Shown here piece by piece: positions 14,387 to 61,660 of a stretch of DNA of 64,000 nt (position 1 is the stretch's first letter; every line of letters starts with the position of its first letter). Location: positions 31,749,540 to 31,813,539 of the forward strand of contig NC_091134.1 of assembly GCF_041381155.1 (NCBI RefSeq), given 5' to 3'. Source of the DNA: Argopecten irradians (taxonomy: Eukaryota > Mollusca > Bivalvia > Pectinida > Pectinidae). The position numbers were made by a program, and so were the translations under genes. The notes beneath the pieces were generated by a model, which ran no database searches, was not told the DNA's origin, and was given only the letters and a program-made list of their open reading frames with translations.

Positions 14387-15199
14387 ATGGATACAGATGA
14401 GGAACCAACTGCGAAGAGAGTCCGTATAGACAGTTATCTCAGTGATGGAGGATCGTCAGGGTCAGATCACGATCATATGATTATAAAGGCCAAGGCTGAC
14501 AAAATGATTAATTCCTGTACATGTCCTTGCAGCGGAAATGTGCAGTCTGCTCATAACACATCTACTATTGACATTGGTGTTACCAACACATCACTCCCGG
14601 CTGACCAAACTTTAGTAACATGTCATACTAATGTCACAAAGTTTAGGGATCCAATGAATCGTGAAAAAACTGATAATGAAAAGACAGATTGTAGCAGTAT
14701 TACTCAATCAGAAATAATTGTTGGTGGAAATAAAGATAATGCAACAGAAAAAAGTTCAAACTGTGTAGAAAACCTTGAGGATAGTTCTTGTGAAACAAAG
14801 AAGGAAAGTGAACATTGTGATGATTCTGTACCAGTTAGACAGGAAAGTGAACAACAGAGTGCACAATCAAAGAATGTGTATGATTTAGAAATAGAGGAGA
14901 GTTCAGAGGAAGTGATTCCTCCATTACAGGGTCTAAGGCAGTCCAAAAGTAATAAAGAAAACATAGTTAGTGATAAGAAATCTCAGGTTTTGCCAAACTC
15001 TGCTCTCAACTCGGAAAAGTCATCTGAAGATGCCAATCAGTCTGGGAATAGTTCAGAAAAGGGAGATACAAGTTTTAAGCTAAGACATTTAGATGTTGCT
15101 GCTAACAAGAAAATAACAAAAATACAGAGAAGAGTGTCCTATATGTATAGTAAAGAATTGATTCAACAATGTGACCTAATGCAAAAAATTCCTGAGAGG
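14387..15199 (+). CDS. HDAC8: HDAC8-like deacetylase, exon 1: long N-terminal extension plus start of catalytic domain
   Basis: The exon encodes 271 residues from ATG 14387 to CCTGAGAGG|GTGAGT. Residues from about 250 (VSYMYSKELIQQCDLMQKIP) match the start of vertebrate HDAC8 ([20 protein letters not shown]). The first 249 residues have no HDAC counterpart. They begin MDTDEEPTAKRVRIDSYLSD, with a basic KRVR cluster that could be a nuclear signal, and are rich in Ser, Glu, Asp and Asn, so likely disordered. Vertebrate HDAC8 has only a short tail here (377 residues in all); this model gives about 631. HDAC8 is a class I zinc deacetylase whose best known target is cohesin SMC3. The start is the first ATG after a stop-containing leader. 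The first part of the extension could instead be untranslated if a downstream Met is used. Confidence 0.85.
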
Positions 15200-15589: not shown

Positions 15590-15642
15590 GCAAGCATGGT
15601 GCATAGTTTGATTGAAGCATATGGAATCCTCAAATACATGGG
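15590..15642 (+). CDS. HDAC8: HDAC8 exon 2
   Basis: TTTTAACAG|GCAAGC to ATGGG|GTAAGT, 53 bases, phase 0 in and phase 2 out. It encodes ASMVHSLIEAYGILKYMG, aligning with human ASMVHSLIEAYALHKQMR. The Ser at the position of human Ser39 (a reported PKA site) is kept, but the preceding context is ERAS rather than KRAS. A dispersed repeat begins 8 bases after the donor. Confidence 0.93.
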
Positions 15643-15650
15643 GTAAGTTT

Positions 15651-16079
15651 TTGATGCTATGAAACAGCATTCTTAGGTAGGCTCGGCAAGCCTGTGCACA
15701 TCTAAACAATAAAACCACTCCGCGATGAAAATTAAATGTTGTTTTGTTCATTTTACATAGTACTTGATAGTATGGATAAAACGAACCTTAGTATTCAAAA
15801 CCACAAACATTAAATTTGTACATACATATGCACTATAGACAGTTTGAATTAAGTGTTCAGTTGGGACTCTATGATTTATGTATCCCAACGCGTCATGTAT
15901 GGTCCCAAAAATCACGAACAACGCCTTCTTCGATGTCTTCCTCCGCGGCAGACTTTCGGTCGATTTTGGATTGTGTATGTCTATTTCAATTTTACGTAGT
16001 TCATGCTACTGCTCGATTAATGTAATGAAATGTTAGGAAGGTAATTGCAAAGAAAGTTCTTATAATGGTAATAGAGTTA
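15651..16079 (+). repeat. 5' fragment of a dispersed repeat (TTGATGCTGTGAAACAGC family)
   Basis: It shares about 400 bases with the copies starting at 16080 and 28266, including a start hairpin of the TGCTGTGAAACAGCA type. It is joined head-to-tail to the next copy. Confidence 0.7.
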
Positions 16080-16778
16080 TTGATGCTGTGAAACAGCATT
16101 CTTAGGTAAGCTCGGAGAGCCTGTGCACATCAAAACAATGAAACCATTCCGCGATGAAAATTAAAAGTTGTTTTGTTCATTTCACGTAATACTTGATGGT
16201 ATGAAAAAAATAAAACCCCAATATTCAAAACCACAGACATAGAATTTGTACATACGTATACACCATGGATGGAATGTTTAAAGTGTTCAGTTGGCACTCT
16301 ATGATATTTGTATAACTCCGAGAACACTGGTCTCTCGAAAATCACGAACAACGCCGCCTTCGCTGTCTTCCTCCGCGACAGACTTTCGGTGGATTTTGGA
16401 TTGTGTATGTTTATTTAAATTTTACGTAATTCATGCTTATGATCGATTATTGTAATCAAATGTTAGTATGCTAACTGCAAAAGAATGTTCTTATAACGCT
16501 GATAAAGTTTTTTGTGTTGGTTTTATTGACGAACTATATCTGAGATATTATTGCGCAGTAAAAGTTAATAGTTTTGAGTACGTGCCTCCTCCCTTGATCT
16601 GTCACTGGGAGTTCTGTCTTGTTTATCAACAACTGCGGTATATTGAAAGGGAAAAAGTACCAAATCTATCAACATAAACTTACAAAATATAATGATAATA
16701 TAGATCTATTTATGTACGAGCAAATGAACTTCTATTGCTGTGTAATGTACGTGTAGCGGGATTGGACTGGGTCGATCA

Positions 16779-16858
16779 TCGGTGACTAGGTAGCTCAGTC
16801 GGTAGAGCACTCGGCTAGTATTCTCAGGGTCCCGGGTTCGAATCCCGGTCTGGCCGCT
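16779..16858 (+). ncRNA. tRNA-like sequence in left LTR
   Basis: It has a TAGCTCAGTCGGTAGAGCA A-box and D-arm, and a CCGGGTTCGAATCCCGG T-arm with a perfect stem. The anticodon and acceptor stems do not pair well, so it is probably a Pol III promoter remnant rather than a working tRNA gene. Confidence 0.6.
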
Positions 16859-17001: not shown

Positions 17002-17081
17002 TCGGTGACTAGGTAGCTCAGTCGGTAGAGCACTCGGCTAGTATTCTGAGGGTCCCGGGTTCGAATCCCGGTCTGGCCGCT
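17002..17081 (+). ncRNA. tRNA-like sequence in right LTR
   Basis: Second copy of the tRNA-like block at 16779-16858, with the same A-box, T-arm and weak anticodon stem. Confidence 0.6.
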
Positions 17082-20356: not shown

Positions 20357-20493
20357 AGTTGTTGCCCCTTCCATAGCTACAGAGGAATCACTTTGTCAGT
20401 TCCACTCACCTGAATATGTAGAGTTTCTAAAGAAAATCAATGACCAAGAAGATGAAGAAATCTACGACGAAGAAGCAGCACAGTTTGGCCTGA
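20357..20493 (+). CDS. HDAC8: HDAC8 exon 3
   Basis: TTTACAG|AGTTGTT to GGCCTGA|GTATGA, 137 bases, phase 2 in and 1 out. It encodes VVAPSIATEESLCQFHSPEY followed by VEFLKKINDQEDEEIYDEEA and ends in AQFGL. It aligns with human [26 protein letters not shown]...SIEYGL. The acidic loop (QEDEEIYDEEA) replaces human QEGDDDHPDS. Confidence 0.93.
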
Positions 20494-20852: not shown

Positions 20853-20994
20853 CTTACGACTGCCCTGTCCACCAGGGGGTGTTTGACTATGCCCTGGCCA
20901 TAGGGGGAGCCACTGTGTCCGCGGCAGAAGAGTTGATCTCTGATCGGTGTGATGTTGCCATTAATTGGTGTGGGGGATGGCATCACGCCCAAAA
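20853..20994 (+). CDS. HDAC8: HDAC8 exon 4 (zinc-site histidines)
   Basis: TTTTAAG|CTTACGAC to GCCCAAAA|GTAAGT, 142 bases. It encodes [20 protein letters not shown] then [12 protein letters not shown]. The HH pair corresponds to human His142-His143, the general acid/base histidines of the active site. Confidence 0.95.
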
Positions 20995-21477: not shown

Positions 21478-21668
21478 AGACAGTGCCTCAGGATTCTGTT
21501 ATGTGAATGACATTGTGTTGGGGATACTGAAGTTGCGGGAGAAATTCTCCAGGGTCCTGTATGTTGATTTAGACTTGCACCACGGTGACGGTGTTCAGGA
21601 TGCGTTCTATGCAACTCCCACAGTGATGACAGTCTCCATACACAAATATGCTGCTGGATTCTTCCCAG
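21478..21668 (+). CDS. HDAC8: HDAC8 exon 5 (metal ligands)
   Basis: ACCATAG|AGACAGTG to TTCCCAG|GTAAAG, 191 bases. It encodes [20 protein letters not shown] and [16 protein letters not shown]. Asp and His of DLHHGDG correspond to zinc ligands Asp178 and His180 of human HDAC8. It ends [12 protein letters not shown], the conserved loop before the variable GTG segment. Confidence 0.95.
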
Positions 21669-22435: not shown

Positions 22436-22544
22436 GTTCAGGGCAGCTAGAAGATATTGGTATTGGTAAAGGAAAAAAATACTGTATAAATATTCCATTA
22501 CAGGATGGAGCTAGAGACAAAGAGTTTGTGGCCTTGTTCTGCAG
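22436..22544 (+). CDS. HDAC8: HDAC8 exon 6
   Basis: ATTCCAG|GTTCAGG to TTCTGCAG|GTAGAA, 109 bases. It encodes SGQLEDIGIGKGKKYCINIP then LQDGARDKEFVALFC, aligning with human [34 protein letters not shown]. Confidence 0.92.
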
Positions 22545-22950: not shown

Positions 22951-23123
22951 GGTGATACAAAAGGTACACACCATGTTTAAACCTGAAGCAGTTGTTTGTC
23001 AGTGTGGAGCTGACGGCTTGGCCGGGGATCCCATGGACTCGTTCAATCTTACGCCCCTGTCCTTAGGTCGATGTTTGTACTATATGCTGGACTGGGGACT
23101 CCCCACACTACTGCTAGGGGGAG
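22951..23123 (+). CDS. HDAC8: HDAC8 exon 7 (third metal ligand)
   Basis: TTAATGCAG|GGTGATAC to GGGGGAG|GTAAGT, 173 bases. It encodes VIQKVHTMFKPEAVVCQCGA, then DGLAGDPMDSFNLTPLSLGR, and ends LLLGGG. The Asp of GLAGDP is the third zinc ligand (human Asp267). Confidence 0.95.
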
Positions 23124-23459: not shown

Positions 23460-23554
23460 GAGGCTACCACCACACAAATACAGCGAGGTGCTGGACTTTC
23501 CTTACAGCGATTGCAGTTGGTAAAAAATTACCAACAGACATACCTGATCACCAG
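23460..23554 (+). CDS. HDAC8: HDAC8 exon 8 (catalytic tyrosine), followed by a donor array
   Basis: ATTGTAG|GAGGCTAC to CTGATCACCAG|GTAAGATC, 95 bases, phase 0 out. It encodes GYHHTNTARCWTFLTAIAVG then KKLPTDIPDHQ. The Tyr after GGGG matches catalytic Tyr306 of human HDAC8. The last 12 exon bases (encoding PDHQ) and the first intron bases are the sequence amplified in the downstream tandem array. Only the first donor keeps the frame into exon 9 without a shift. Confidence 0.95.
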
Positions 23555-25231
23555 GTAAGATCATGTTACATTTGCCTGATCACCAGGTAAGATTATATTA
23601 CATTTACCTGATCACCAGGTAAGATCATGTTACATTTAACTGATCACCAGGTAAGATTATGTTACATATACCTGATTTACATTTACCTGATCACCAGGTA
23701 AGATTATGTTACATTTACCTGATCACCAGGTAAGATTATGTTACATTACTGATCACCAGTAAGATATGTTACATTTAACTGATCACCAGGTAAGATTATG
23801 TTACATTTACCTGATCACCAGGTAAGGATATGTTACATTTACCTGAATCACCAGGTAAGATTATGTTACATTTACCTGATCACCAGGTAAGATTATGTTA
23901 CATTTACCTGATCACCAGGTAAGATTATGTTACATTTACCTGATCACCAGGTAAGATTATGTTACATTTACCTGATCACCAGGTAAGATTATGTTACATT
24001 TACCTGATCACCAGGTAAGATTATGTTACATTTACCTGATCACCAGGTAAGATTATGTTACATTTACCTGATCACCAGGTAAGATTATGTTACATTTACC
24101 TGATCACCAGGTAAGATTATGTTACATTTACCTGATCACCAGGTAAGATTATGTTACATTTATCTGATCACCAGGTAAGATTATGTTACATTTACCTGAT
24201 CACCAGGTAAGGATATGTTACATTTACCTGATCACCAGGTAAGATTATGTTACATTTACCTGATCACCAGGTAAGATTATGTTACATTTAACTGATCACA
24301 TGCATGTTACATTTACCTGATCACCAGGTAAGGATATGTTACATTTACCTGATCACCAGGTAAGATTATGTTACATTTACCTGATCACCAGGTAAGGTTA
24401 TGTTACATTTACCTGATCACCAGGTAAGATTATGTTACATTTACCTGATCACCAGGTAAGATTATGTTACATTTATCTGATCACCAGGTAAGATTATGTT
24501 ACATTTATCTGATCACCAGGTAAGATTATGTTACATTTACCTGATCACCAGGTAAGATTATGTTACATTTACCTGATCACCAGGTAAGGTTATGTTACAT
24601 TTACCTGATCACCAGGTAAGATTATGTTACATTTACTGATCACCAGGTAAGATTATGTTACATTTACCTGATCACCAGGTAAGATTATATTACATTTATC
24701 TGATCACCAGGTAAGATTATGTTACATTTATCTGATCACCAGGTAAGATTATGTTACATTTATCTGATCACCAGGTAAGATTATGTTACATTTATCTGAT
24801 CACCAGGTAAGATTATGTTACATTTATCTGATCACCAGGTAAGATTATGTTACATTTATCTGATCACCAGGTAAGATTATGTTACATTTAACTGATCACC
24901 AGGTAAGATTATATGTTACATTTATCTGATCACCAGGTAAGGTATGTTACATTTATCTGATCACCAGGTAAGACTATGTTACATTTATCTGATCACCAGG
25001 GTAAGATCATGTTACATTTATCTGATCACCAGGTAAGATTAATGTTACATTTATCTGATCACCAGGTAAGATTATGTTACATTTATCTGATCACCAGTAA
25101 GATTAAGTTACATTTATCTGATCACCAGTGTTATGTTACATTTATCTGATCACCAGGTAAGGATTATGTTACATTTATCTGATCACCAGGTAAGATTATG
25201 TTACATTTATCTGATCACCAGGTAAGATCAT
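23543..25231 (+). repeat. Tandem array of about 50 copies of the HDAC8 exon 8 end plus 5' splice site
   Basis: Unit about 32 bases: CCTGATCACCAG, then GTAAGATTATGTTACATTTA. The first copy is the genuine exon 8/intron 8 border. Roughly 50-53 copies follow, most exact in CAG|GTAAG, with a few 24-31 base variants (for example near 23745, 24290 and 25130). The first half of the array mostly has TTACCTG, the second half mostly TTATCTG, so variants are grouped in blocks. Within each unit TTACCTG and CAGGTAA pair as a 7-base stem around ATCAC. Confidence 0.97.
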
Positions 25232-25315
25232 GGTTTATTGATAGGATCTTCTTACTTTAACTACTATGCTAGACAATCACATGGTAATGCTGTCACAGAT
25301 GCCATAATATAATAA

Positions 25316-25490
25316 GGGTCCAGTTTTATGAACATCTTAAATCAAAGAAATTCCTTAATTTTGAATTCTCCATTGAAAAGCATTTAAGATATTTCATCAC
25401 CTTTACACTTCATTTCTGTAATGCTTACCTATGGAATTTTAAGTTTAGAAGTTTCCTTAAGGTAAAAAAGTGTTCATGGGCAACAGGTGC
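25316..25490. mobile_element. Short palindromic MITE (GGGTCCAGTTT family), copy 2
   Basis: Begins GGGTCCAGTTTTATGAACAT and ends GTTCATGGGCAACAGG. Internal TTCCTTAA and TTAAGGAA-like segments pair. Related to 55934-56140 and 11736-11914. Confidence 0.4.
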
Positions 25491-25503
25491 CATGATATAG
25501 ATA

Positions 25504-25813
25504 CAGTGAAACCTGTCTTAACGACCCCCTGTATTCAGCGACTTCCTGTCTTAAGCAACCTTAATTTTTTCTCCCAATGATATTTACTATATAAATGACC
25601 TGTATTCAACGACCACCTGCCTAACGCGACTGACGACCATAAAAATTCACACCATAAAGTGTTCATAACCTGTCTAAAGCGACTATTTTGAAATTAAAAC
25701 CGGAAGTTTTGAAAGAAATCTCGCGCGATTTCGTGTGATTTTGTTGTGAAAAAAAAATTAATTGATACAATTTTGAACATCCATTGGAAGGTCACTTAAA
25801 ACAGGTTTAACTG
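25504..25813. mobile_element. Tigger/pogo-like MITE in HDAC8 intron 8
   Basis: The left end CAGTGAAACCTGTCTTAACG and the complement of the right end CAGTTAAACCTGTTTTAAGT are inverted repeats. TA dinucleotides flank both ends. It is about 310 bases and non-coding. Confidence 0.75.
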
Positions 25814-25929
25814 TACAAGTTTATATTAATATTTCTCAAAGAGCTTGAGTTGATTAGTAAATGTTTTGAGATACTTCATTCTGCTTTTTATTATGTTTGA
25901 ATGTTTGAATATATATGTTTTTGATCCAG

Positions 25930-26035
25930 TTTTTTATGGAGTATGGCCCAGACTATGGCCTCAACATTACGGCCGGCAACAGGAAAGACCAAAACTCCCA
26001 AGACTATTTACGGAAAATTCATCGCTCTATCATGG
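25930..26035 (+). CDS. HDAC8: HDAC8 exon 9 (C-terminal helix region)
   Basis: TTGATCCAG|TTTTTTATG to ATCATGG|GTAAGG, 106 bases, phase 0 in and 1 out. It encodes FFMEYGPDYGLNITAGNRKD then QNSQDYLRKIHRSIM, matching human [34 protein letters not shown]. If the donor is skipped the frame runs on to a stop at about 26109. Confidence 0.93.
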
Positions 26036-26130: not shown

Positions 26131-26694
26131 TAGCCCACCATCATCAGATGGTGGGCTATTCAAATCGCCTTTCGTCCGTGGTCCGTCCGTCCGTCCGTCC
26201 GTCCGTCCGTCCGTTAACAATTCTTGTTACCGCTATTTCTCAGAAAGTACAGAAGGGATCTTTCTCAAATTTCACATGTAGGTTCCCCTAGGGCCCTAGT
26301 TGTGCATATTGCATTTTGGGACCAATCGGTCAACAAGATGGCCGACTGGCAGCCATCTTGGATTTTGATAGTTAAAGTTTGTTACCGCTATTTCTCAGAA
26401 AGTTCTGAAGGGATCTTTCTCAAATTTCACATGTAGGTTCCCCTAGGGCCCTAGTTGTGCATATTGCATTTTGGGACAGATCGGTCAGCAAGATGATCGA
26501 CAGGTAGCCATCTTGAATTTTGATAATTGAAGTTTGTTACTGCTACATATCTCAGAAAGTACTGAAAGGATCTTTCTCAAGGTTCATATATAGTATGTAG
26601 TAAAAGTTTGAAAAGCAGGGAAAAGATCCCTCTTTCTGTTGTCAGACATAGATCATTCTTTGGTGGGCGCCAAGATCCCTCTTGGATCTCTTGT
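26131..26694 (+). mobile_element. Repeat with GTCC microsatellite and 155-base units, copy 1
   Basis: It starts with the hairpin CCCACCATCATCAGATGGTG, followed by (GTCC)n and then about 2.5 units of 155 bases beginning GTTACCGCTATTTCTCAG (26226, 26381, 26535). It ends GGGCGCCAAGATCCCTCTTG...CTCTTGT. The layout is like bivalve 'pearl'/CvA-type elements, probably Helitron-derived and non-autonomous. Confidence 0.65.
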
Positions 26695-30266: not shown

Positions 30267-31480
30267 CACAGATATCACCCAGGATACTTCCCTAGAAACA
30301 CAAATAAATAATGTCAATATTGATATCACCAAGGATACTTCCCTAGAAACAGAAATAGGCAATGTCGATACAGATATCACCCAGGATACTTCCCTAGAAA
30401 CAGAAATAAAAATGTCGATACAGATAACACCCAGGATACTTCCCTAGAAACAGAAATAAACAAAGTCGATACAGATATGACCCAGGATACTTCCCAAGTA
30501 ACAGAAATAAACAATGTTTATTCAGAAATTACCCAGAATACTTCCCAAGTAACAGAAATAAACAATGTTTATAAAGAAATCACCCAAGATACTTCCCTAG
30601 AAACAGAAATAAACAATGTCGATACAGATATCACCAGGATACTTCCCCAGAAATAACTGTCGACACATAATCACCCAGATACTTATGCAAGTACCAGAAC
30701 AAAATAAACAATGTTTATACAGAAATTACCCAGGATACTTCCCAAGTAACAGAAATAAACAATGTTTATACAGAAATCACCCAGGATACTTCCCTAGAAA
30801 CAGAAATAAACAATGTCGATACAGATATCACCCAGGATACTTCCCTAGAAACAGAAATAAACAATGTTTATACAGGTATCACCCAGGATACTTCCCTAGA
30901 AACAGAAAAAAACAATGTCGATACAGATATCACCAAAGTTACTTCCCTAGAAACAGAAATAAACAATGTTGATACAGACATTACCCAGGACACTTCCCTA
31001 GAAACACAAATAAATAATGTTTATACAGACATCACCCAGGATACTTCCCTAGAAACATAAATAAATAATGTTTACACAGATATCACCCAGGATACTTCCC
31101 TAGAAACACAAATAAATAATGTCAATATTGATATCACCAAGGATACTTCCCTAGAAACAGAAATAGGCAATGTCGATACAGATATCACCCAGGATACTTC
31201 TCTAGAAACAGAAATAAACAATGTCGATACAGATAACACCCAGGATACTTCCCTAGAAACAGAAATAAACAATGTCGATACAGATATCACCCAGGATACT
31301 TCCCAAGTAACAGAAATAAACAATGTTTATTCAGAAATTACCCAGAATACTTCCCAAGTAACAGAAATAAACAATGTTTATAAAGAAATCACCCAAGATA
31401 CTTCCCTAGAAACAGAAATAAACAATGTCGATACAGATATCACCCAGGATACTTCCATAGAAGCATAGATAAACAATGTC
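30267..31480. repeat. 51-base minisatellite in the PLAC8-like gene
   Basis: Unit GTCGATACAGATATCACCCA, then GGATACTTCCCTAGAAACAG, then AAATAAACAAT; about 24 copies. Two flavours alternate (GTCGATACAG and GTTTATACAG; CCCTAGAAAC and CCCAAGTAAC). Because 51 is a multiple of 3, several frames stay open (for example TEINNVDTDITQDTSLE on plus). It sits in an intron on the gene's sense (minus) strand, where each unit reads TTTATTTCTGTTTCTAG. Confidence 0.95.
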
Positions 31481-32048
31481 AATAAACTTCTCTAGTAACA
31501 GAAATAAACAATGTTTATACAGATATCACCATGGATACATCCCTTGTAACAGAGATAAACAAGATCGTTACTGCATATTTCCAAAATCGCGAGGGGAATG
31601 GGGGCATTATAGCTATGTATTCATGGCATGTAGTTCTACCTTTTTACAATACTCGTCATATAGTCACTTCCATTGAGATAAAATAAAATAAAAATCTCTT
31701 AGGAACTTATTATAATAAAATGCATTTTTCTACTGACAGACAACATGTACAATCTCGCTACAAAACGAAACTAGCCCTATGACAACAGTAGCTCATGAAA
31801 ACAGTAACAATTAGAATGAATTTGGGCAGACCAATCTCTATTTGAAAACGTTACCAACACAATTATGAATGTCTGTCACCAACAGGTTATAGAGATGTAA
31901 AAATCTTGCTTAAACCAGAAACAATAATTATCATTGTGAAATGTTTACATAAGTCTACTAGTATGTATACCCATGGAAATAATTGTTTGGTGCCATGTGA
32001 ATATAGTGTAAAAGTGGATATAAATATTTTCACACAAGTCTTACTTAC

Positions 32049-60630: not shown

Positions 60631-61660
60631 CTGCCATCATCAGATGGTGGGCTATTCAAATCGCTTTTTGTGCGTGGTCCGTCGTCCGTCCGTCCGTCCG
60701 TCCTTCCGTCCGTTAACATTTCTTGTTACCGCTATTTCTCAGACAGGACTGAAGGGATCTTTCTCAAATTTCATATGTAGGTTCCCCTAGGGCCCTAGTT
60801 GTGCATATTGCATTTTGGGACCGATAGGTCAACAAGATGGCCGCCAGGCCGCCATCTTGGATTTTGGTAGTTAAAGTTTGTTACCGCTATTTCTCAGAAA
60901 GTACTGAAGGGATCTCTCAAATTTCATATGTAGGTTCCCCTAGGACCCTAGTTGTGCATATTGCATTTTGGGACTGATCGGTCAACAAGATGGCCGCCAG
61001 GCTGCCATCTTGGATTTTGATAGTTAAAGTTTATTACCGCTATTTCTAAGAAAATAATGAAGGGATCTCTCTCAAATTTCTTATGCAGTTCCCTTAGGTC
61101 CCTAGTTACGCATATTACATATAAGGATTGATCGGTCAACAAGATGGCCGATAGGCCACCAAATTGGATTTTGAAATTGAAGTTTGTTACCGCTATTTCT
61201 CAGAAATTACTGAAGGGATCTGTCTCAAATGTCATATCATGTGCAGGGGTCTTGTTGTGCATATTGGAATTTGCATTTTAGGACTGATCCGTCAACAAGA
61301 TGGCCGACAGGCCACCATCTTGGATTTTGATAATTGAAGTTTGTTACCGCTATTTCTCAGAAAGTACTAAAGCGATATGTCTCACATTTTTTATGTAGGT
61401 TCCCTTAGGACTTAAGTTGTAAATATTGCATTTTCGAACCAATCGGTCAACAAGATGACCGACAGGTAACCATCTTGGATTTTGATAATTGAAGTTTATT
61501 AGTGTTATATATCTCAGAAAGTACTGAAAGATTCTTTCTCAAATTTCATATGTAGTAATACGAAGTAAAAGTTTGAAAAGCAGAGAAAAGATCCCTCTTT
61601 CCATTATCAGACGTAGATCATTCTTTGGTGGGCGCCAAGATCCCTCTGGGATCTCTTGTA
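60631..61660 (+). mobile_element. Repeat with GTCC microsatellite and six 155-base units
   Basis: The start hairpin (CCATCATCAGATGGTGG) is followed by (GTCC)n. Units beginning GTTACCGCTATTTCTCAG or a variant lie at 60725, 60880, 61033, 61186, 61342 and 61497 (spacing 153-156). It ends GGGCGCCAAGATCCCTCTGG then GATCTCTTGT. Longest copy in the window of the 26131-26694 family. Confidence 0.75.

Follow-up and report, generated by a model that had tools for sequence, protein, structure and literature searches.

A splice-donor minisatellite at the end of exon 8 of an HDAC8 gene in Argopecten irradians

We analyzed a 64,000-nt window of one Argopecten irradians assembly (GCF_041381155.1, NC_091134.1); positions below are those of this window. 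Its + strand carries an HDAC8-like gene, which looks intact as far as it was read. A tandem array begins inside exon 8 of this gene and extends 1.7 kb into intron 8, so that the 5' splice site is repeated in nearly every unit. The repeat unit was, on well-supported evidence, born from the gene's own exon 8/intron 8 boundary, and only the first donor would give the normal HDAC8 protein. We consider it reasonably probable (about 60%) that the minisatellite is mainly tolerated while a modest share of transcripts is spliced unproductively, and that it is no evolved regulator.

Results

The exon 8 donor is repeated in a 32-bp array

The features at the boundary, all on the + strand, are as follows (a slash within a sequence marks the splice site).

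23460..23554, +: HDAC8 exon 8, 95 nt, ends ...IPDHQ, phase 0; aligned to solved HDAC8
23541..25232, +: 32-bp splice-donor minisatellite, 52 anchored units; Tandem Repeats Finder, anchoring and wraparound alignment
23554/23555, +: donor 1, CAG/GTAAGATC, at the end of HDAC8 exon 8
23555..25929, +: intron 8, 2375 nt from donor 1 and 708 nt from the last donor (25222), the latter by subtraction
25930..26035, +: HDAC8 exon 9 (FFMEYGPDYGLNITAGN...), acceptor GATCCAG/TTT; open-frame reading, protein match

Tandem Repeats Finder reported the array in two calls, 23541-23676 and 23677-25232, with a period of 32. The main row held 49 copies with 94% matches and a score of 2673, and wraparound alignment placed the array end at 25232. 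These are head-to-tail units of tens of bases with high identity, as in a minisatellite. The preliminary description of this DNA had about 50 units of about 32 bp running from the exon end into the intron, which agrees with the 52 units counted by the anchor CACCAG. When the array is cut at TTACAT instead, 54 segments result, including an additional 15-base fragment and an additional unit that lacks a donor. The copy number rests on one assembly and may be inexact.

The claim that nearly all units keep an intact CAG/GTAAG was borne out in 48 of the 52, of which 41 read CAG/GTAAGA, as donor 1 does, and seven read CAG/GTAAGG. GTAAG is shifted by one base in three units (one CAGGGTAAG, two CAGTAAG) and absent from one (CAGTG). 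With both strands counted, CAGGTAAG is found at two places of the window outside the array, compared with 48 inside it. One exact sequence is common to 18 units and another to 10; a single C/T position distinguishes the two. C-type units make up most of the 5' part and T-type units most of the 3' part; identical units run up to nine in a row, those of the T type up to five. ATCATG is kept in the first, last, 3rd and 45th units, while most inner units have ATTATG.

The unit derives from the exon 8/intron 8 boundary

With its start rotated to ACAT, the unit was aligned with the last 17 bases of exon 8 followed by the first 14 intron bases after the last donor. This alignment has 29 identities over the 32 unit bases; the differences are a single mismatch, two inserted bases (TT) and the loss of one G. 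Its score of 23.5 compares with 13.5 for the best of 124,380 other 31-mers from both strands of the window. Scanning the window with starts every 4 bases gave no ungapped match of at least 22 of 32 bases outside the array. A foreign satellite or transposon was considered as the source and rejected, because the boundary explains 29/32 of the unit and no 31-mer outside the array is comparable. The unit is composed of the gene's own boundary bases, which therefore argues for local tandem duplication; the earlier reading of the unit as the exon 8 end (PDHQ) plus the intron start at CAG/GTAAGA fits an array that grew from the real boundary.

We infer that a 31-bp boundary segment (17 exon and 14 intron bases) was tandemly duplicated, that one G was lost and TT gained near the new joint, and that slippage or unequal exchange then expanded the array from inside to about 52 copies, presumably in this order.

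Only donor 1 would preserve the HDAC8 protein

The gene model covers nine exons, E1 to E9. Those upstream of the boundary are listed here.

14387..15199, +: HDAC8 E1; open frame with E2-E9, putative start codon
15590..15642, +: HDAC8 E2 (ASMVHSLIEAYGILKYMG); frame open only with the end at 15642
20357..20493, +: HDAC8 E3; open-frame reading, protein match
20853..20994, +: HDAC8 E4; open-frame reading
21478..21668, +: HDAC8 E5; open-frame reading, protein match
22436..22544, +: HDAC8 E6; open-frame reading
22951..23123, +: HDAC8 E7; open-frame reading, protein match

Joined from E1 (14387) to E9 (26035), with the E2 end at 15642, the exons give 1819 bases and 606 open codons. Nine combinations of E2 and E6 ends were tried, and the eight others led to stop codons. 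The protein of E2-E9 matches PF00850 with an E value of 3.5e-85. When exon pieces were compared with solved protein chains, the best HDAC8 match had an E value of 1.5e-78 versus 4.8e-62 for HDAC1; among the 60 matches listed, of 136 in all, the best 40 were HDAC8, with HDAC1 next. By this comparison the gene is HDAC8, a class I histone deacetylase, its predicted domain being closest to HDAC8 among the solved deacetylases. Both the gene name and the place of the donor on the eighth exon, as given in the preliminary description, are thus upheld.

Exon 8 ends in ATA CCT GAT CAC CAG (I P D H Q) and exon 9 begins with FFMEYGPDY. Their joint aligns without a gap to solved HDAC8 (IPDHEFFTAYGPDY; matching segment ipdhEFFtaygpdy). 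For this reason donor 1 is the site that preserves the protein, and presumably the ancestral one.

Joining to E9 was enumerated for all 52 anchored donor positions. The frame is normal from donor 1. With donor 2 the message is 32 nt longer, and E9, to the extent that it was read, is out of frame. Positions 3-52 lead to a TAA after 11 extra codons, following ...PDHQVRSCYICLITR; this outcome is purely formal for the four positions in which the GT is displaced or missing. Skipping of E8 (95 nt) likewise shifts the frame. The enumeration matches what had been claimed for the three classes of donor, and on this reading of the frame donor 1 alone would give normal HDAC8.

Most units have a predicted hairpin over the donor

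23541..23557, +: TACCTG-ATCAC-CAGGTA hairpin at the true donor, 6-bp stem; predicted folding

In C-type units the hairpin reads TTTACCTG-ATCAC-CAGGTAAG, with longer arms than in the exon copy; the array-specific TT insertion gives the predicted RNA stem 8 pairs in place of 6. That this lengthening helped the expansion is speculation. For 23-base pieces the predicted RNA energies were -7.1 (exon copy), -8.6 (C-type), -6.0 (T-type) and -1.9 kcal/mol (A-type), and the predicted DNA energies were -4.5, -5.3, -1.9 and -2.5 kcal/mol in the same order. Compared with shuffles, four C-type units gave z = -4.7 as RNA, -7.6 as DNA and -7.7 as RNA of the complementary strand, and a T-type DNA stretch gave z = -2.1. 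A single 32-base piece in which the stem is split was unremarkable against its shuffles (RNA z = -0.5).

The upstream arm is TTACCTG 26 times in the array, TTATCTG 19 times (a G.U pair in RNA) and TTAACTG four times (stem broken). T occupies the variable position in 19 of the 54 segments, 16 of these 19 lying in the 3' third. The C-to-T changes, which keep a G.U pair, may be few events and were not used as evidence. We take UUACCUG to be the donor-pairing end of U1 small nuclear RNA; the anti-U1 oligonucleotides CTGCCAGGTAAGTAT and GCCAGGUAAGUAU, taken from papers, agree with this. Most units would thus carry a donor together with its own mask, which in the folding model buries the donor in a hairpin. 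A second perfect hairpin, GTTGGTAA-AAAA-TTACCAAC, lies in exon 8 at 23516-23535 and adjoins the donor hairpin upstream.

Donor bases are no better conserved than the rest of the unit

Changes were counted per unit and are not independent events. In the donor octamer 16 changes fall on 8 positions (2.0 per position), and the other 24 unit positions have 68 (2.8 per position), 26 of them at the C/T/A hotspot. Without this hotspot the non-donor positions have 1.8 changes each versus 2.0 in the donor. By these per-position counts the donor bases are no better conserved than the rest of the unit, and selection to keep the donors is unsupported. Intron 8 was also checked with regard to telescripting or poly(A) protection, and contains no AATAAA and one ATTAAA, at 25693.

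Other features of the gene and the window

E1 (14387-15199) places about 250 residues ahead of the HDAC8-like part; they appear acidic- and Ser-rich by eye, and human HDAC8 is not known to have such an extension. A 430-bp tandem duplication in two copies (15646-16496) starts 4 bases past the E2 end, at the E2 donor. The second copy has no GTAAG. This is a second tandem duplication in the HDAC8 gene with an edge at a splice donor. Intron 2 also contains two tRNA-like copies (16784-16857 and 17007-17080), which we would guess to be tRNA-derived short interspersed elements (SINEs).

Elsewhere in the window, a 51-bp array of 24 copies (30268-31484) is in frame for 129 codons in one stretch and 135 in another, and encodes 17-residue repeats like DTDITQDTSLETEINNV. 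Its protein scored 24.3 and 25.6 bits against Pfam HU-DNA_bdg, below the curated cut-off of 30. A near-same tandem unit of about 155 bp occurs in two arrays 34 kb apart (26224-26580 and 60723-61555), each preceded by a 4-base array (CGTC and GTCC).

Discussion

A probably tolerated ladder of donors

The expansion would have left a ladder of near-identical 5' splice sites. Such an array is probably tolerated since HDAC8 continues to be made from donor 1, and neighboring donors would account for some unproductive splicing. U1 may bind many of the donors, the surplus being shed as the spliceosome commits. Passages of a study of splice site choice describe several U1 that bind alternative sites first and are removed later where in surplus, the choice depending on affinity and relative position (PMC8283771). 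The normal mRNA would still come from donor 1. Some transcripts would take the next few donors, of which donor 2 shifts the frame and those from the third onward introduce an early TAA; such use of the first few donors is expected because the human gene IFI6 uses downstream units of its own array. Transcripts from later donors would largely be lost to nonsense-mediated decay. Our prediction is accordingly that decay removes a modest part of the HDAC8 mRNA and that no noteworthy new protein is made.

Several points weigh against this explanation. Donor use is here read from genomic sequence. Where donors are duplicated the intron-proximal site tends to be preferred, which would favor later donors and a larger loss. 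In addition, predicted openness ranked donor 1 as 43, 51 and 50 of the 52 donors in three local-folding settings. We had considered that donor 1 might be more accessible than the others, and this idea was rejected since all three settings gave the reverse; structure therefore gives no reason for donor 1 to win. In silico, the low ranks lean, weakly, toward the masking of donor 1 that the preliminary description had put forward as a possibility. Another of its suggestions was that the array might act as a sink for U1. Also to be counted here is the role of the hairpin in the expansion. A hairpin in each unit perhaps aided it, yet the T-type unit, which folds weakly as DNA (-1.9 vs -5.3 kcal/mol for the C-type), also forms identical runs. 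When donor 1 was compared with five other donors of the gene, its openness lay inside their range under two of the settings, and the third placed it lower than any of the five. According to passages of PMC6002489, the true site is deprived of U1 when the protein HMGA1a traps U1 at a pseudo-site lying 33 nt upstream.

Alternative explanations

The array could be without effect on the RNA, exon definition fixing donor 1. The gene looks intact to the extent that it was read, and since the donor cores are equal the upstream exon context could decide. However, 12 exon bases are common to the units and the real site, and later repeat units are used in IFI6, according to the parts of PMC4526556 that we cite; we hold a fully inert array to be unlikely.

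Alternatively, the array could be a brake set by copy number, in which a fixed share of transcripts is diverted to donors 2-52 and decayed, more copies mean less HDAC8, and hairpins and U1 occupancy tune the share. Every donor position past the first gives a frameshift or a stop, 41 of the 52 positions have all nine bases of CAG/GTAAGA in common, and donor 1 is predicted to be relatively closed. The counts of changes reveal no sign of selection for a brake, a bolder reading that we hold to be unlikely. A related possibility is that competition between hairpin and U1 decides donor use in a ladder that masks itself, copy number setting the productive share of HDAC8. It would build on about 50 donors, most of them in units that by the folding model also hold the upstream complement UUACCUG, and it seems to us quite improbable.

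In another scheme donor 1 is spliced to the AG of a downstream unit, which recreates a donor, so that the array is removed stepwise and the mRNA is unchanged. AG/GT is juxtaposed in 48 of the 52 units (CACCAG/GTAAG), and this juxtaposition is the ratchet-point motif in the recursive splicing literature, as far as the cited part goes (PMC8758631). The pyrimidine fraction before CAG has a median of 0.63 (0.58-0.68), within the 0.53-0.74 of eight real acceptors of the gene, but 21% of 184 nearby CAGs also attain this median. A strong pyrimidine tract is absent and the acceptor quality of the units is ordinary. The intron measures 2375 nt and is not very long, whereas known recursive introns are mostly >10 kb in that same account (PMC8758631). 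Stepwise removal is hence very unlikely.

Finally, an array collapsed, expanded or misplaced by the assembler is hardly credible, although there is a single assembly and tandem arrays are often missized, because the variants are ordered (C-type mostly 5', T-type mostly 3', single-unit indels) and both edge units carry ATCATG.

Comparison with known systems

The array is a natural test of competition among dozens of near-identical 5' splice sites, serial and with known spacing, in which only the first would lead to a normal protein. To our knowledge, most work on how one of several identical donors is chosen has used constructs with two or a few sites. If copy-number variants exist, they would directly reveal the influence of donor position, structure and number on splicing and on the output of the gene. 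The array also indicates that a minisatellite can arise on a splice junction while the conserved gene around it shows no visible damage.

We noticed no other donor array than that of IFI6 among the titles listed from the literature searched, a weak negative since most subscription papers lie outside its coverage. Among the titles listed on HDAC8, molluscs and splicing none concerned such an array, and the portions consulted of papers on minisatellites in C. elegans, earthworm and human segmental duplications do not describe donor arrays.

The gain of introns by AGGT tandem duplication (the Rogers model; potato RdRp, fission yeast) resembles our case in having tandem AG/GT copies in a gene, as outlined in part of PMC4974935. 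In contrast, the HDAC8 intron pre-existed, the duplicated segment straddles its 5' boundary and the gain of an intron is not required. Recursive splice sites, in Drosophila Ubx and others, share the AG/GT that recreates a donor after splicing (PMC8758631, in part). They differ in that the HDAC8 intron is short, its pyrimidines are moderate and its sites are dozens in tandem, here known at the level of genomic DNA.

The direct precedent is the minisatellite of human IFI6 (6-16, G1P3), reportedly described by Turri et al. in 1995. Its array, as we take it, has a 12-bp unit in about 26 copies, starts near the end of exon 2 and offers alternatives that preserve the frame. Like IFI6, HDAC8 here has an array that starts at an exon end and repeat units that bear the donor. 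In IFI6, three mRNA species arise through the use of downstream repeat units as donors (PMC4526556, in the part cited). The kind of donor minisatellite is thus already known from IFI6, and the HDAC8 case differs in the gene, in a 32-bp unit that is not a multiple of 3, so that later donors destroy the frame, and in the predicted hairpin over the donor in most units.
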